Shown here: positions 25,569-31,676 of the stretch, piece after piece | Numbering within the stretch: the first letter of the stretch is position 1 | How the letters are laid out: each line of letters opens with the position of its first letter | DNA from: Levilactobacillus parabrevis ATCC 53295 | Lineage (GTDB): Bacteria > Bacillota > Bacilli > Lactobacillales > Lactobacillaceae | DNA length: 34,436 nt | Direction of reading: 5' to 3' | Assembly: GCF_001434055.1 (NCBI RefSeq) | Contig: NZ_AZCZ01000030.1 | Location: forward strand, 1 to 34,436 | Program-made: the position numbers and the translations under genes | Notes under the pieces: model-generated | Database searches by the model: none | What the model saw: the letters and a program-made list of their open reading frames with translations, nothing else | What the model was told of the DNA's origin: nothing

Positions 25569-26945
25569 TTAATTTTCTGACTTTTGTTTCTCTTGATGCC
25601 GTAATTCCATTTCGATTTCTTCCAGTGACTTGCCCCGCGTTTCAGGAACCAGGTAGTGAACGAAGAACATGGAGAGGACGGCAAAGACGGCGAACACGGC
25701 AAATGGTCCCCCCACGTTGTTGTGGAAGTAGGCCAACATGACCAGGAAGAACTGTGAAACCAAGAAGTTTCCGATCCAGTTAGCCGCTGACCCGATGGAC
25801 GACCCGATACCTCGAACGCTCAACGGGAAGATTTCACCAATCGTTACCCAGGCGATGGGCCCCCAGGAAATGGCGAACCCAAAGATGTAAACGGCAATGA
25901 GAATCATGGTTGGAATGGCCGTCGTGTGAATATCCATGGTAAAGTTCATCACGGCTAAGATTCCCAGTGAGACCGCCATGACGATCGACCCAAACATCAG
26001 GAACGTCCGTCGATTGAATTTATCCATGATGAAGGTGGCAAGGACCGTCACGACAAAGTTCACGATCCCAATCCCCACGGAGATCCAGATGGCGCTGCCC
26101 TCCGCAAAACCAAAGCCTTTGATGAAGACTTGCGGCAGGAAGTAAATAACGGAGTTGATCCCGACCAATTGCTGCAGCAACATAATGCCGACCGCCACAA
26201 TAACGGCGGGCCGGGCGACCGTGAAGAGTTCCTTCAGGCCACCCTTAGGCTGACTGGCAACGACCTTGATCTCTGCCAGCTCGGCCGAGGGGTCATCCGT
26301 CGTATTCTTCCGCAACATTTTCAAAACGCTGAGCGCTTGGTCATTCTTACCTTGTTCGGCCAAGAACCGTGGCGATTCAGGTAAGAGCAAGCCCCCAATT
26401 AACAGCAGTGCCGCTGGAATCAACGCGGACCCCAGCATCCACCGCCAATCCCGGATACCCAACAGGTTGTGGTCGAGGAAGCTCAGGTTAGAAACGTAGG
26501 CCAACAGAATCCCCAACGTAATCATCAGTTGGAACAACGTCCCCAATGAACCCCGCCGTTCTGCGGGTGCCAATTCAGTCAGGTAGGCTGGCGTCAACGC
26601 TGACGCCGACCCAACGGCCAGCCCCAGGATGATCCGGGCAACGACCATTGACCAGAAACCAATGGCGACCATCGATAACGATGACCCGAGTAAGAAGAGG
26701 ATCGCCGCCAGAATCAGCAGGCGTTTCCGTCCATACCGATCGGCCAGTGGCCCAACGCCCAGTGCCCCAACGGACGAACCAATCAGGACGGAAGACGTGA
26801 TGAACCCCGTCTGAGCGATGTTCAAGCTAAAGTTATTTTCAATCAGTGGTGACGCTCCAGAAATAATCCCCGTATCAAATCCAAACAATAATCCACCAAG
26901 TGCGCCGAAAGTAAAAATAAAGAAGGTACTTAAGTGTCGATTCAT
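25569..26945 (-). CDS. MFS sugar porter (XylT/AraE-like proton symporter)
   Basis: Sugar:proton symporter of about 458 residues and 12 membrane segments. Sugar-porter signatures are complete: GFDTGIISGA in helix 1, PLADRYGRKRLL, the LTELAPAERRGSL loop, PESPRFLAEQGK after helix 6, LLQQLVGINSVIYF in helix 7 and PETRGKSLEEIE at the C-terminus. The substrate is probably a pentose or hexose. ATG 26943-26945 is chosen, with GGAGG about 11 nt away; a GTG six codons upstream has no ribosome site. A cre-like site lies at 26994. It does not look like part of the xylPQ operon. Confidence 0.9.
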   Translation of the reverse strand: MNRHLSTFFIFTFGALGGLLFGFDTGIISGASPLIENNFSLNIAQTGFITSSVLIGSSVGALGVGPLADRYGRKRLLILAAILFLLGSSLSMVAIGFWSMVVARIILGLAVGSASALTPAYLTELAPAERRGSLGTLFQLMITLGILLAYVSNLSFLDHNLLGIRDWRWMLGSALIPAALLLIGGLLLPESPRFLAEQGKNDQALSVLKMLRKNTTDDPSAELAEIKVVASQPKGGLKELFTVARPAVIVAVGIMLLQQLVGINSVIYFLPQVFIKGFGFAEGSAIWISVGIGIVNFVVTVLATFIMDKFNRRTFLMFGSIVMAVSLGILAVMNFTMDIHTTAIPTMILIAVYIFGFAISWGPIAWVTIGEIFPLSVRGIGSSIGSAANWIGNFLVSQFFLVMLAYFHNNVGGPFAVFAVFAVLSMFFVHYLVPETRGKSLEEIEMELRHQEKQKSEN

Positions 26946-26993: not shown

Positions 26994-27007
26994 TGTAACC
27001 GTTTCCA
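26994..27007 (-). promoter_or_regulatory. cre site for CcpA upstream of the sugar porter
   Basis: TGTAACCGTTTCCA fits the 14-bp TGNAANCGNTNNCA form. It lies about 50 bp before the gene start, where CcpA would repress. Confidence 0.65.
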
Positions 27008-27145: not shown

Positions 27146-28060
27146 TTATTCATTTTTATTTGCTGGCTGATTCCCAGTTACCAGGAACCCCTTCATATAG
27201 TTCTTCCGATAGTTTGTAGGCGTCACACCCACCTTCTTCTTAAATAACCGCAAAAAGTACTTCTCATCATTGAAGTAAGCCCGATCGGCAATCACTTTTA
27301 AAGGCAGATTAGACTCCAGCAAGAGGCGCTTGGCAATGTTGATTTTTAGAAAGATGATGTAATTTTCCACGGTAAAACCAGTCTCCGTCTTCAGGAGTTG
27401 ACTCAGATAACGATAGTTCAAATCAAAATGCGCTGCCACATCCTTAACGCCCAACGCATAATCCAAGTTAGCCCGAATCCAGTCCTTGATCAACCGTGCC
27501 TTAGGATTCTCCTTGACCAACCGATGGAGAGAATTAATAAAATCGTTTGAAATTTGCAAGGCTAGTTTCGTCACACTGTAGGACATGATGGCATCCGTGT
27601 AATTAATCTCCTGCGAAATTGCGAGAACCTCATTGGCACTTGCCAAGATATTATCAAAGTTGTCAATCGTGTATTCCGCCGGCAATATCGCATAATTAAT
27701 GATTCGGCTCAACCGATCACGGTCATCCAACGCAGCCAGTAATTGCTCGCGCGCCATCGTAGCTACCCGATCCTTAGGGTAGAAGTGAAACCAGTAATAC
27801 TCTACATCTACATCGGATTTTTCATAGCCCGTCACCGTTGCTCCCGCCGGTACGAGCATGAATTTTCCTCGAACCAATTCATGCTTCGTACCATTCACGT
27901 CGAGGTAGGCAACCCCCTTCACGCCAATGATTAACTCATAATTATCATTGAGTGTCGTTGTCTGATGCTGCCAGCCCTGCTTAGCCGTATACCGCCCCGC
28001 CACAAAGTGATGGAACGGGCGATCACTATTCAAAATCGTAATTGGTTCGTTTTCACTCAT
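27146..28060 (-). CDS. AraC-family transcriptional regulator of the alpha-xyloside operon
   Basis: Sugar-sensing regulator of about 304 residues. The N-terminal cupin (about 15-95; KGVAYLDVNGTKHELVRGKFMLVPAGATVTGY) binds the inducer. The C-terminal pair of helix-turn-helix motifs spans about 200-295: LGVKDVAAHFDLNYRYLSQLLKTETGFTVENYI and PLKVIADRAYFNDEKYFLRLFKKKVGVTPTNYRK. It is divergent from xylP, and the 190-bp gap holds a phased operator array. The start is taken at ATG 28058-28060; GTG 28073-28075 is a possible alternative. The direct role (activation by isoprimeverose or similar) is inferred from position. Confidence 0.9.
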   Translation of the reverse strand: MSENEPITILNSDRPFHHFVAGRYTAKQGWQHQTTTLNDNYELIIGVKGVAYLDVNGTKHELVRGKFMLVPAGATVTGYEKSDVDVEYYWFHFYPKDRVATMAREQLLAALDDRDRLSRIINYAILPAEYTIDNFDNILASANEVLAISQEINYTDAIMSYSVTKLALQISNDFINSLHRLVKENPKARLIKDWIRANLDYALGVKDVAAHFDLNYRYLSQLLKTETGFTVENYIIFLKINIAKRLLLESNLPLKVIADRAYFNDEKYFLRLFKKKVGVTPTNYRKNYMKGFLVTGNQPANKNE

Positions 28061-28169
28061 CTGTATTTTGTCCACCTTCGCCTTTTCTCCCTGAGAAATA
28101 GTCCACCTATCTGCACTTTTATCTGAACATCATCCACCAATTTTGCGACTCTATTCAAAATCGTCCACT
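28056..28169. promoter_or_regulatory. Phased operator array: four TCCAC-containing repeats at exact 31-bp intervals
   Basis: TCCACC starts at 28071, 28102 and 28133, and TCCACT at 28164, each 31 bp apart (about three DNA turns). The preceding bases are also similar: CTGTATTTTG, CTGAGAAATAG, CTGAACATCA and ATTCAAAATCG. Each unit thus forms a degenerate site of about 20 bp on one DNA face. A further exact 14-base copy of CTATTCAAAATCGT occurs in the araC start region (28026-28039) and in unit four (28151-28164). Most likely AraC-protein binding sites. Confidence 0.75.
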
Positions 28170-28178
28170 TTTTCTATC

Positions 28179-28206
28179 ATTATATCAGTTTCGACCATTT
28201 AGTGAA
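28179..28206 (-). promoter_or_regulatory. araC promoter
   Basis: On the reverse strand: TTCACT (plus 28201-28206), 16 bp, TATAAT (plus 28179-28184). It overlaps the xylP promoter back to back. Confidence 0.7.
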
Positions 28207-28218
28207 AGCGTGTACAAT
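28190..28218 (+). promoter_or_regulatory. xylPQ promoter
   Basis: TTCGAC (28190-28195), 17 bp, TACAAT (28213-28218). The operator array ends about 20 bp upstream of the -35, suitable for activation. Confidence 0.8.
28203..28216 (+). promoter_or_regulatory. cre site overlapping both divergent promoters
   Basis: TGAAAGCGTGTACA matches the CcpA consensus TGNAARCGNWWWCA except for one base. It covers the xylPQ -10 and the araC -35, so glucose should repress both. Confidence 0.75.
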
Positions 28219-28265
28219 ATAACTGTCTTCTCGAGTAGACCAGAAAATTTGAGGTGAACTTCAAC

Positions 28266-29627
28266 ATGAAAAAGAAAGCAAAACAATTCCTAAGCAATTA
28301 TGAAATGTTCAATTATGCCAGTCTAAACTTTGCCCAGGTTCTTATTTATTTCTTGATCAGTAGCTATCTGCTCTACTTTTACACCGATGTCGCCAAGATT
28401 CCTGTAACTGTTGCTGGGGTGATTCTCCTGATTGCCCGGGGCTTCGATGCAATCGATGCCCCAATCTGGGGAGCTTTGATTGATATTACTCATTCTAAAT
28501 ACGGTCGATCACGCCCCTACTTCCTGTGGGTAGCATTTCCATTCGCCATTTCATCCGTCCTGATGTTCTGGAACCCTAGCTTGCCCTACAAGCAAAAGAT
28601 TATCTGGTGTGCCGTCACCTACATTCTTTCCGGGATTCTCTACACCGGGATCAACACGCCACTGACGTCAATCTTACCATCGCTGTCACGAGTCCCAGAA
28701 GAACGCCTGAAGGCTAACTCCTGGCGATTGGTTGGTTCACAATTGGGGGGCTTCCTGATTAACGCAGCTTGCCTGCCCGTCGTTGCCTTCCTTGGTAAGG
28801 GCAATGACACCGTCGGCTTCCGTTTCTTAATCGTCGTCGTTGCTATTATCTTCCTAATTATTACGCTACATGCCTTCACGGTTGTTAAGGAACGGGTTCC
28901 CGTTTCGGTTAAGAAAGTGCCAATCAACAAGAGTGTCAAAGCCATCAAGGGTAACTGGCCCTGGGTCATCATCGTTATCAGTAATTTATTCTACTGGATG
29001 GCTTATACCAACCGGAACTCCACGTTGGTTTACTACTTCACTTATAACTTTAACGACAAGGGCTTAGTTTCCCTGTTCAATTCGTTAGCTTCACTCCAGC
29101 TCTTCATGATTCTTCTGATTCCTTGGCTGAATAAGCGATTCTCCAAGACGCAGATCTGGTCAGCTGGATTCATCATCGCTATCATTGGCCAACTCATTGT
29201 GTTAGCCGCTGGTCATAACGTTCCCACCGCACTGTTCGGTTGGATCTTTGGGAACATGGGCTCCGGAGTCGCCGTTACCATGCCATTCTCCATGCTGAGC
29301 CAAGCCGTGGACTTTGGTGAATGGAAGACTGGGATTCACTCCTCTGGGATTCTGACCGCGCTGGGCAGTTCCTTCTGTATCAAGATGGGGAGTGGCCTCG
29401 CTGGCTTCATCCCCTCAATGATTCTGGCCCACTTCGGTTACGTGGCTAATCACGTTCAGACGGCCCGTTCCCTATTCGGAATTAAATTAAGTTTCATCTG
29501 GGTTTCCATCCTCCTGTTTGCCTGCGCCCTGATTCCAGTGTTGTTCTACGGGAAATACGAACGGATGGAAGACAAAATCGCTGCTGACTTAAAGCAACGG
29601 CATTTACAAACTAAGGAGACTGATTAA
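28266..29627 (+). CDS. xylP: GPH-family alpha-xyloside (isoprimeverose) transporter
   Basis: Cation symporter of 453 residues and about 12 membrane segments. GPH features: YLLYFYTDVAKIP near residue 38, RGFDAIDAPIWGALIDITHSKYGRSRPYF (about 57-85) and SMLSQAVDFGEWKTGIHS (about 340-357). It is related to, but clearly distinct from, XynP at 9271. Paired with an alpha-xylosidase 3 nt downstream, it corresponds to the xylP-xylQ pair described in Lactiplantibacillus pentosus for isoprimeverose use. ATG 28266 is chosen because GAGGTG lies 9 nt upstream; a GTG at 28254 is inside that ribosome site. Confidence 0.85.
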   Translation: MKKKAKQFLSNYEMFNYASLNFAQVLIYFLISSYLLYFYTDVAKIPVTVAGVILLIARGFDAIDAPIWGALIDITHSKYGRSRPYFLWVAFPFAISSVLMFWNPSLPYKQKIIWCAVTYILSGILYTGINTPLTSILPSLSRVPEERLKANSWRLVGSQLGGFLINAACLPVVAFLGKGNDTVGFRFLIVVVAIIFLIITLHAFTVVKERVPVSVKKVPINKSVKAIKGNWPWVIIVISNLFYWMAYTNRNSTLVYYFTYNFNDKGLVSLFNSLASLQLFMILLIPWLNKRFSKTQIWSAGFIIAIIGQLIVLAAGHNVPTALFGWIFGNMGSGVAVTMPFSMLSQAVDFGEWKTGIHSSGILTALGSSFCIKMGSGLAGFIPSMILAHFGYVANHVQTARSLFGIKLSFIWVSILLFACALIPVLFYGKYERMEDKIAADLKQRHLQTKETD

Positions 29628-29630
29628 TTT

Positions 29631-31676
29631 ATGGCAATTATTGAAGATCATACACACAAACTCTATTGGACCCACGCGGCCGAACAAATTCTGGTTGAAC
29701 CGTGGGGCGCTAATAGCTTGCGGGTTCGAGTGACAAAGAAAGCTGACTTTGCGGCCGACCAGGACTGGGCACTTACCCAATCCGTGAGCGGTCAAGACCA
29801 GGCAAAGGTAACGATCACTGACGATACTGGTGCGATTCAAAATGGCCATCTGACGGCCAGCATCAACAAATTTGGTTGGCTGACGTTTACCGATCAGACG
29901 GGTAAAACCCTATTGGAAGAACGCTGGCAAGTCAAGCCCGGCGGTCACAAGACTAGTCCACTCGGCATTCCCGGCCGTGAGCTCAAGCCCATCATCGGTG
30001 GGGACTATGCCGCTACCATGCGTTTCGAAGCCGTCGATGGCGAAAAAATCTTCGGCATGGGCCAACGTCAAGAAAAGCAATTGAACTTCAAGGGCTGTAT
30101 TCTCGAATTGGCCCAACGGAACACTCAGGCCAATGTGCCTTTCGTGATTTCTAACCTCGGCTACGGTTTCCTATGGAATAACCCCGCTATCGGCCAAGTG
30201 ACCTTTGCTAACAACGAAACCAAGTGGGAGGCCCAAGACACCGACCAGATTGACTTCTGGATCACCGCGGATGACTCGCCAGCCGCCATCGAAGAATCCT
30301 ACACAGCTGTTACTGGTCACGTCCCAATGATGCCTGACTTTGCCAGTGGTTTCTGGCAATGCAAGCTCCGCTATCGTAGCCAAGCCGAACTGCTGCGGGT
30401 GGCTCACGAGTACAAGGACCGCGGGCTACCAATCAGTGTGATCGTCATCGACTTCTTCCACTGGACCCAGCAAGGGGAATGGAAATTCGACCCGAAGAAG
30501 TGGCCAGATCCTAAGGCTATGGTCGATGAGCTTAAGTCGATGGGCATCAAGCTCATGGTTTCCATTTGGCCAACCGTAGATATCAACAGTGAGAACTATA
30601 ACGAAATGGAGGATAAGGGTTACCTCGTCCGCTCCGAACGGATGTACAACGACTCTTACCACTTCATGGGTAACGAAACCTTCTTCGATGCCACCCACCC
30701 CGGCGCCCGTAACTTCATTTGGCAGAAGGCTAAGCAACACTACTACGACAAGGGTATTCACCTCTTCTGGCTGGACGAAGCGGAGCCTGAATATGGCTTT
30801 ATGTACGACTTCGACCACTTCAGATACCACATCGGACCGGCCTTAAAGGTCAGCAACATCTATCCATTAGACTACGCCAAAGCCTTCTACGACGGACAAA
30901 AGGCCGAGGGGCAAACGGACATTATCAACCTGGTGCGCTGTGTCTGGGCCGGTAGTCAACGCTTCGGCACCTTACTCTGGTCCGGCGACGTTCACTCTAC
31001 CTTTGAATCCTTACAGAAGCAGGTCGTGGCTGGCTTAAACGCTGGCTTATCTGGAATCTCCTGGTGGACGACCGATATCGGCGGCTTCACCGGCGGCAAC
31101 GTTGAAGATCCAAAGTTCCACGAGTTGTTAGCCCGTTGGTTCCAGTTCGGGACATTCTGCCCCGTCATGCGGATTCACGGTTTCCGTGAGCCAGCGGAAC
31201 AGACCATTGAACACGCCGACCGGATGTTTGGCCAGCCATTTGGCTCCGGGGCCTTCAACGAAATCTACAAGTACCCGAAGGCCACCTACCAGATCCTGCG
31301 GAAATACCTATTCATGCGTGAAGCCATGCGACCTTACATCATGGCTCAGATGAAGCAAGCCCACGAGAAGGGAACGCCCGTCATGCGGCCCCTCTTCTAC
31401 GACTTCAACCACGATGACACCGCCTGGAACATCTCCGACGAGTACATGTTTGGCCCGGACATCCTAGTTGCCCCAATCCTACACGCCGATGAACAACAGC
31501 GGCAGATTTACCTGCCAGCCGGTGAAAAGTGGATCGACATCAACACACAAAAGGTCTACGATGGCGGCCAAACCATCACCGTAGCTACGCCAGTTGAAAC
31601 GATTCCCGTCTTCACCCGGGCCAGTCATCCCGTTAAGAAAATTTTGAATTTCACGGCACCAGAACTAGTAGAATAG
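29631..31676 (+). CDS. xylQ: Alpha-xylosidase, glycoside hydrolase family 31
   Basis: Cytoplasmic retaining enzyme that splits isoprimeverose (xylose alpha-1,6-glucose) into xylose and glucose. 681 residues, close to XylQ/YicI size. The nucleophile is Asp382 in GIHLFWLDEAEPEYG and the acid/base is Asp453 in LLWSGDVHSTF. Further GH31 blocks: VIDFFHWTQQGEWKFDPKKWPDP (about 273-294), GLSGISWWTTDIGGFTGG (470s) and QFGTFCPVMRIHG. The acceptor-site loop DFFHWTQQGEW is characteristic of alpha-xylosidases. Start at ATG 29631, about 12 nt from AAGGAG, which lies at the end of xylP. Confidence 0.93.
   Translation: MAIIEDHTHKLYWTHAAEQILVEPWGANSLRVRVTKKADFAADQDWALTQSVSGQDQAKVTITDDTGAIQNGHLTASINKFGWLTFTDQTGKTLLEERWQVKPGGHKTSPLGIPGRELKPIIGGDYAATMRFEAVDGEKIFGMGQRQEKQLNFKGCILELAQRNTQANVPFVISNLGYGFLWNNPAIGQVTFANNETKWEAQDTDQIDFWITADDSPAAIEESYTAVTGHVPMMPDFASGFWQCKLRYRSQAELLRVAHEYKDRGLPISVIVIDFFHWTQQGEWKFDPKKWPDPKAMVDELKSMGIKLMVSIWPTVDINSENYNEMEDKGYLVRSERMYNDSYHFMGNETFFDATHPGARNFIWQKAKQHYYDKGIHLFWLDEAEPEYGFMYDFDHFRYHIGPALKVSNIYPLDYAKAFYDGQKAEGQTDIINLVRCVWAGSQRFGTLLWSGDVHSTFESLQKQVVAGLNAGLSGISWWTTDIGGFTGGNVEDPKFHELLARWFQFGTFCPVMRIHGFREPAEQTIEHADRMFGQPFGSGAFNEIYKYPKATYQILRKYLFMREAMRPYIMAQMKQAHEKGTPVMRPLFYDFNHDDTAWNISDEYMFGPDILVAPILHADEQQRQIYLPAGEKWIDINTQKVYDGGQTITVATPVETIPVFTRASHPVKKILNFTAPELVE

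Follow-up and report, generated by a model that had tools for sequence, protein, structure and literature searches.

In Escherichia coli, the araI1-araI2 sites and the MelR system place AraC-family half-sites near a promoter, engage several regulator molecules and include feedback on the regulator gene. The araI spacing is 21 bp, the MelR sites do not form one even row, and the promoter of the MelR gene itself is under multi-site control. The array described here differs from both in being an even row of four sites at about 31 bp.

Tandem sites of this family have also been described in a 2021 study of Caldicellulosiruptor regulons, whose sections on AraC-family regulators report tandem repeats with large spacers located upstream of promoters, a position that suggests activators (PMC8579813). 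The search template for repeated units had a 21- or 32-bp periodicity, i.e., two or three turns; the corresponding methods sentence prints ‘inverted repeats’, where the context indicates that tandem ones were meant, and AraC-family regulators were predicted for an alpha-xyloside locus (PMC8579813). Our array resembles these sites in having units two or three turns apart, but in Caldicellulosiruptor two units were sought per site, whereas here four stand in series and reach the araC ribosome-binding site (PMC8579813). The AraC-family rhamnose regulators of Bacillales, Bacteroides and Enterococcus are likewise sugar regulators with direct-repeat motifs, although the passages describing them give a 21-bp direct repeat and not a row of four (PMC3870299).

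Among lactic acid bacteria, the recognition motif of the AraC-type XylR of Lactococcus lactis could not be accurately determined in a 2010 study (PMC2873477), and in Lactobacillus brevis ATCC 367 an araC gene adjoins an alpha-xylosidase gene (PMC7125115). Both are AraC-type regulators found with xylose or alpha-xylosidase genes, as in our locus, but the accessible text of these papers describes no operator array (PMC2873477, PMC7125115). A paper on regulons of lactic acid bacteria, in its accessible text, uses AraC once, as a family name, and mentions neither xylose nor isoprimeverose (PMC3616900). No description of a four-unit, three-turn row was found in a literature search that scarcely covered subscription journals. 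The array is real and conserved, and its layout is unusual, but it belongs to a general type that is already published, with tandem AraC-family sites separated by two or three turns. A first-pass annotation of this DNA had presented the layout as exceptional; the four-site row is indeed unusual, but three-unit 21-bp arrays occur in another AraC clade (see below) and periodicities of 21 and 32 bp appear in the published search template (PMC8579813).

The repeat array between araC and xylPQ

The window, the whole 34,436-base stretch of DNA that was analyzed, contains an araC gene divergent to genes for a symporter and a GH31 enzyme, with 205 bp between the start codons. The araC product combines a cupin-type sensor with an HTH_18 domain, and the nearest solved structure to the GH31 enzyme is the alpha-xylosidase MeXyl31 (5zn6). 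The names xylP and xylQ are labels retained from the first-pass annotation. The araC start was taken by eye as the ATG at 28060; the list of open reading frames has a GTG at 28075. The features, with leave-one-out scores from the half-site matrix described below, are as follows.

27146..28060, minus strand: araC, AraC-family regulator (open reading frame; Pfam PF02311, PF12833 and PF00165 above cut-offs)
28062..28075, minus strand: half-site 4, GTGGACAAAATACA, TCCAC at 28071 (leave-one-out 14.7)
28093..28106, minus strand: half-site 3, GTGGACTATTTCTC, TCCAC at 28102 (leave-one-out 16.0)
28124..28137, minus strand: half-site 2, GTGGATGATGTTCA, TCCAC at 28133 (leave-one-out 12.4)
28155..28168, minus strand: half-site 1, GTGGACGATTTTGA, TCCAC at 28164, closest to the xylP promoter (leave-one-out 17.5)
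28179..28206, minus strand: predicted araC promoter, TTCACT, 16 bp, TATAAT (promoter-like match, 10/12)
28185..28198, minus strand: possible weak fifth half-site, ATGGTCGAAACTGA, covering the xylP −35 (leave-one-out rank 6/228)
28190..28218, plus strand: predicted xylP promoter, −35 TTCGAC (28190-28195), 17 bp, −10 TACAAT (28213-28218), by eye
28203..28216, plus strand: cre-like (CcpA) site, TGAAAGCGTGTACA, over the predicted xylP −10 (loosened pattern, present in 4/4 aligned sequences)
28266..29627, plus strand: xylP-like GPH-family sugar symporter (PF13347; TIGR00792 above cut-off)
29631..31676, plus strand: xylQ-like GH31 alpha-xylosidase (PF01055)

Within positions 28020-28230, TCCAC occurs at exactly 28071, 28102, 28133 and 28164, as the first-pass annotation had claimed. 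Nowhere else in the window do four exact 5-mers stand at equal spacing (period 15-60); no such set arose when the window was shuffled 20 times, and 5000 dinucleotide shuffles of the 205-bp spacer between the genes yielded no 5-mer with four evenly spaced copies. A motif-free scan of the window for four units repeated at one constant lag selected 31 bp (0/200 shuffles at any lag, and 0/300 in a second scan), and with this best lag the array did not match a 21-bp (two-turn) spacing. The array is built of 14-bp half-sites (GTGGACnATnTTCA, araC strand) that share one orientation and lie about 31 bp, or three helical turns, apart. Each unit is short, as chance repeats in an A+T-rich spacer might be, but the 5000 shuffles and the presence of the chain in nine loci (see below) make chance a practically negligible explanation.

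Within the half-site matrix the GTGGAC box is strong and a T-rich/TTCA box, about one turn on, is weaker. The four array sites are the best four matrix matches of the window on both strands, with half-site 1 the top match at 18.6 bits, and half-site 4 overlaps the Shine-Dalgarno-like AAGGTGG of araC (28072-28078). The closest strong half-site stops 21 bp short of the xylP −35. The weak fifth half-site over this −35 is suggestive only; it lies 30 bp past site 1 (29 in Secundilactobacillus pentosiphilus), and among 228 positions in each sequence it ranks 6 in the window, 7 in L. tujiorum, 13 in Lactobacillus sp. HBUAS51381 and 9 in S. pentosiphilus. In the genome from which the window comes, the pattern has 13 matches, of which the three with 0-1 mismatch are all within the array, and close pair matches are absent outside it.

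A 14-mer, CTATTCAAAATCGT, had also been annotated as a related element, and it is indeed present at 28026-28039 and 28151-28164; the copy at 28026, however, is araC coding sequence. It was rejected as a fifth unit, being inside araC (codons TILNS) and out of register, and it carries AATTAC instead of GTGGAC at the box position. The same stretch is coding in relatives too, with identical DNA in L. tujiorum and one change in HBUAS51381.

The predicted araC and xylP promoters overlap head to head. A promoter scan places the xylP promoter one base off the assignment by eye (TCGACC-16-TACAAT, 28191-28218, 9/12), and the araC TATAAT is retained in 4/4 aligned sequences; the scan gave 5 promoter-like sites against 2.8 in shuffles, which taken alone is weak evidence. 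If the predicted promoters are used, the araC leader, from about 28172, would hold all four half-sites at about +5 to +110 of the transcript.

Two further elements were observed nearby. A second cre-like match, TGTAACCGTTTCCA, lies at 26994-27007, upstream of the sugar-porter gene (25569-26945) that comes after araC. At the predicted xylP transcription start there is a near-perfect palindrome, GTCTTCTCGAGTAGAC (28225-28240), which looks like a candidate operator for a second regulator. It is identical in two Levilactobacillus relatives and has the form TTACTCGAGTAA in Secundilactobacillus; in its own genome this is the sole mismatch-free match, and two more places match with 2 mismatches.

Conservation of the array in orthologous loci

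Nine distinct orthologous loci from three genera were compared. The Levilactobacillus side comprises the window, L. tujiorum (L002/L010) and Lactobacillus sp. HBUAS51381 (L003/L011); S. pentosiphilus is represented by L007, with an identical upstream in L029; and the Limosilactobacillus loci are those of panis (L004/L033), secaliphilus (L005/L034) and oris (L006/L030), together with L031 and L035, which fall in the genus group of these species. Before counting we removed a partial 32% match from Tenacibaculum (L008), three returns of the window’s own genome (L001, L009, L037) and duplicates of an upstream region already included (L002, L011 and L029, and L004-L006 beside L033, L034 and L030). 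The S. pentosiphilus araC orthologue (L007 2990-3900, L029) is split between two frames in the assembly. The half-site matrix was built from the window, L. tujiorum, HBUAS51381 and S. pentosiphilus, each of which was tested with itself left out; these leave-one-out scores are inflated, since the four sequences are related by descent.

A chain of four sites at 30-32 bp spacing was found in 9/9 loci, with scores from 14.0 to 61.6 that were reached by 0/2000 shuffles in eight loci and 1/2000 in L034. In 19 other AraC homologues (L012-L028, L032, L036) the chain scored between −24.4 and −1.0, and among these L017 had the lowest shuffle count, 4/300. In leave-one-out tests the array sites were the top four matches in all four matrix sequences. 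Their spacings are 31/31/31 in the window and S. pentosiphilus, where the second site is degenerate (GTTCAT), and 32/31/31 in L. tujiorum and HBUAS51381; the other five loci have mixtures of 30-32, with one or two of the four sites scoring below zero in each. The array spans 93-94 bp in all nine loci, a value that the 30-32 limit of the test favors.

In a MAFFT alignment, the GTGGAC boxes are more strongly conserved than their surroundings. Identity to the window is 24/24 in the boxes and 33/53 in the spacers for HBUAS51381, 21/24 and 32/53 for L. tujiorum, and 22/24 and 19/53 for S. pentosiphilus. Fisher tests of box against all other array columns gave 0.0006, 0.019 and 0.00005 for these pairs with the window, and a non-significant 0.11 for the L. 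tujiorum-HBUAS51381 pair. Loss of the period in close relatives, which the first-pass annotation had named as evidence against its reading, was examined and the array was found to be retained. The period persists in relatives as the flanks drift, but it is not exact as had been proposed, being 32 once in two Levilactobacillus loci and 30-32 in Limosilactobacillus.

Tests that use no motif recover the period in part of the set. With an exact lag, P was 0.035 over any lag and below 1/200 at lag 31 in HBUAS51381, 0.385 and 0.015 in L. tujiorum, and 0.01 and 0.01 in S. pentosiphilus; lag 31 was not significant in panis (0.45), secaliphilus (0.735) or oris (0.185), and the Limosilactobacillus array is visible only with the matrix and the 30-32 tolerance. 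A second motif-free scan, for three/four units, gave 0.000/0.047 in HBUAS51381, 0.193/0.690 in L. tujiorum and 0.400/0.163 in S. pentosiphilus. In the oris-type loci (L006, L031), alternative sites at 138, 170, 212 and 244 form two 32-bp pairs that are 42 bp, or four turns, apart.

The position of the array relative to araC bears on whether the repeats might work at the RNA level in the araC leader, either as standby sites with the Shine-Dalgarno-like sequence GGUGGA or as structured RNA. All four units lie in the predicted leader of the window and the fourth overlaps the Shine-Dalgarno. However, the final GTGGAC of panis, secaliphilus and oris is within the araC coding start, off the ribosome-binding site (start codons by eye), and is therefore not kept merely as a Shine-Dalgarno, and the shared motif extends past GGTGG to the T-rich box. 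A search of Rfam gave no match up to E 1 and three leaders showed no unusual fold (z-scores −1.02, 0.37 and 0.54). The leader reading was rejected on the Rfam and folding results, and we regard it as very improbable.

Half-site spacing and AraC clade

Three-unit repeats at exactly 21 bp were found near the araC start in 5/17 other AraC homologues of the genus (L019, L020, L024, L025 and L027). This was the best lag in four loci and tied best in L025, with P over any lag of 0.007, 0.037, 0.013, 0.080 and 0.040, respectively, and a leave-one-out chain test gave 0/1000 in each of the five loci, which are mutually related. Relative to the matched start of araC, the 21-bp arrays occupy about −66 to −12, and their half-site is GTATACAAAT-like. 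They resemble the window array in this half-site, in their shared orientation, in having the last unit near the araC start and in the divergent GH31 gene (5/5 loci, L081-L085), but they have three units two turns apart and belong to a separate clade. The symporter beside the 21-bp clade was scanned at one of the five loci (L081).

In the AraC tree, which was built without the split S. pentosiphilus protein and carries a long-branch warning that includes L034 and L035, the five 21-bp rows form one starred clade and eight 31-bp rows form another, and the spacing therefore goes with the regulator clade. Half-site spacing tracks the AraC clade, with two turns in one and three in the other. In the 31-bp set, the gene divergent from araC is a GH31 enzyme or GPH symporter in 8/9 loci, the L. 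tujiorum contig ending too soon, and GH31 adjoins araC or sits behind the symporter in the window and seven other loci (L003, L004-L007, L080, L086). As judged by eye, both Limosilactobacillus and the 21-bp clade have the last unit within coding sequence, and selection on the protein may therefore contribute to its retention. A longer linker between sensor and HTH as the origin of the wider spacing was unsupported, since the extra residues of the 31-bp clade lie within the N-terminal part and are present in some array-less clades too (alignment by eye).

The genus thus contains a natural pair of AraC clades next to GH31 genes, one with two-turn and the other with three-turn arrays. This pair allows a direct test of what determines the spacing and the number of half-sites in the AraC family. 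The array also supplies a candidate operator motif for the use of alpha-xylosides by lactobacilli.

Proposed function and distribution

The first-pass annotation’s operator-like regular array between araC and xylPQ was borne out, with its period kept in relatives; the array and its conservation were observed directly, as was its association with this AraC clade and with GH31 genes. The regulator probably controls the divergent genes for alpha-xyloside uptake, and the row between them, being retained in related lactobacilli, probably represents a real switch. We consider it likely that the array consists of direct half-sites of the neighboring AraC, through which xylPQ would be activated and araC subjected to feedback. 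The identity of the binder, its ligand, the activation and the feedback are inferred.

Each half-site, about 14 bp long, would present the GTGGAC box and, roughly one helical turn further along, the T-rich box. Four same-orientation sites at about 31 bp would put bound monomers on one DNA face, and the row could be covered by two dimers or by a longer chain. The inducer may be an alpha-xyloside such as isoprimeverose, or xylose. With the sugar present, AraC on the array would extend to the weak fifth half-site that covers the −35 and bring RNA polymerase to xylP, whose promoter is weak. Such binding would at the same time restrain araC, as the four sites lie in the first ~110 nt of its predicted transcript with the last over the ribosome-binding site, while CcpA could shut xylP via the cre over its −10.

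How AraC would occupy the row is a separate matter. A head-to-tail polymer nucleated along one DNA face, with cooperative occupancy of four or five sites and a steep or graded response instead of two independent dimers, would agree with four direct sites near helical phase and with the 93-94 bp span in nine loci (favored, again, by the 30-32 test limit), and poor single sites, tolerated in some relatives, are what cooperative binding would allow. The alternative oris-type sites fit two dimers better, however, and the order-level homologue L038 has just two weak sites 30 bp apart; we view the polymer as doubtful. Similarly tentative is a broader proposal for the three-turn array, in which AraC molecules would line up in helical phase, beginning at the regulator’s own ribosome-binding site and ending at the −35 of the target. 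A single array would then work both as a dose-counting activator of alpha-xyloside uptake and as a feedback brake, and the choice of two- or three-turn spacing would be a property of the protein that differs between clades and can evolve.

A protein other than the neighboring AraC might be the binder, given that the palindrome conserved around the predicted start of xylP transcription points to a further regulator acting here as well. Yet the array accompanies this AraC clade in 9/9 loci and was not found at the 19 other AraC homologues, the second HTH (IAD..YFNDEKYFLR.FKK) is invariant in six aligned rows that have the GTGGA box in common, and no close pair match exists elsewhere in the window’s own genome. 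Binding by another regulator is thus improbable, and AraC remains our preferred binder.

Orthologues of this AraC are rare. At E 1e-55, 6/397 family genomes match, one of them (L032) outside the clade in the tree; at 1e-50, araC matches 1/15 genomes in the genus of G246 and 5/50 in that of G390; and at order level, 2/295 genomes match at E 1e-60, own genome included. A pattern search (≤1 mismatch) gave matches in 72/397 family genomes, and among the matches listed, overlapping ones chained 31 bp apart occurred only in G000 (own genome) and G028; some of the scattered remaining matches are perhaps DnaA-box clusters. This search is insensitive, as G246, G109 and G390 carry degenerate arrays yet gave 0 matches. 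Plasmid records with a match numbered 848, every one at <60% identity. For L038, from another family of the order, the four-site chain scored −3.4 and was reached by 90/2000 shuffles. In this locus (L038/L079) the AraC homologue has a GPH symporter and a GH127 enzyme as neighbors, with a cre-like sequence nearby.
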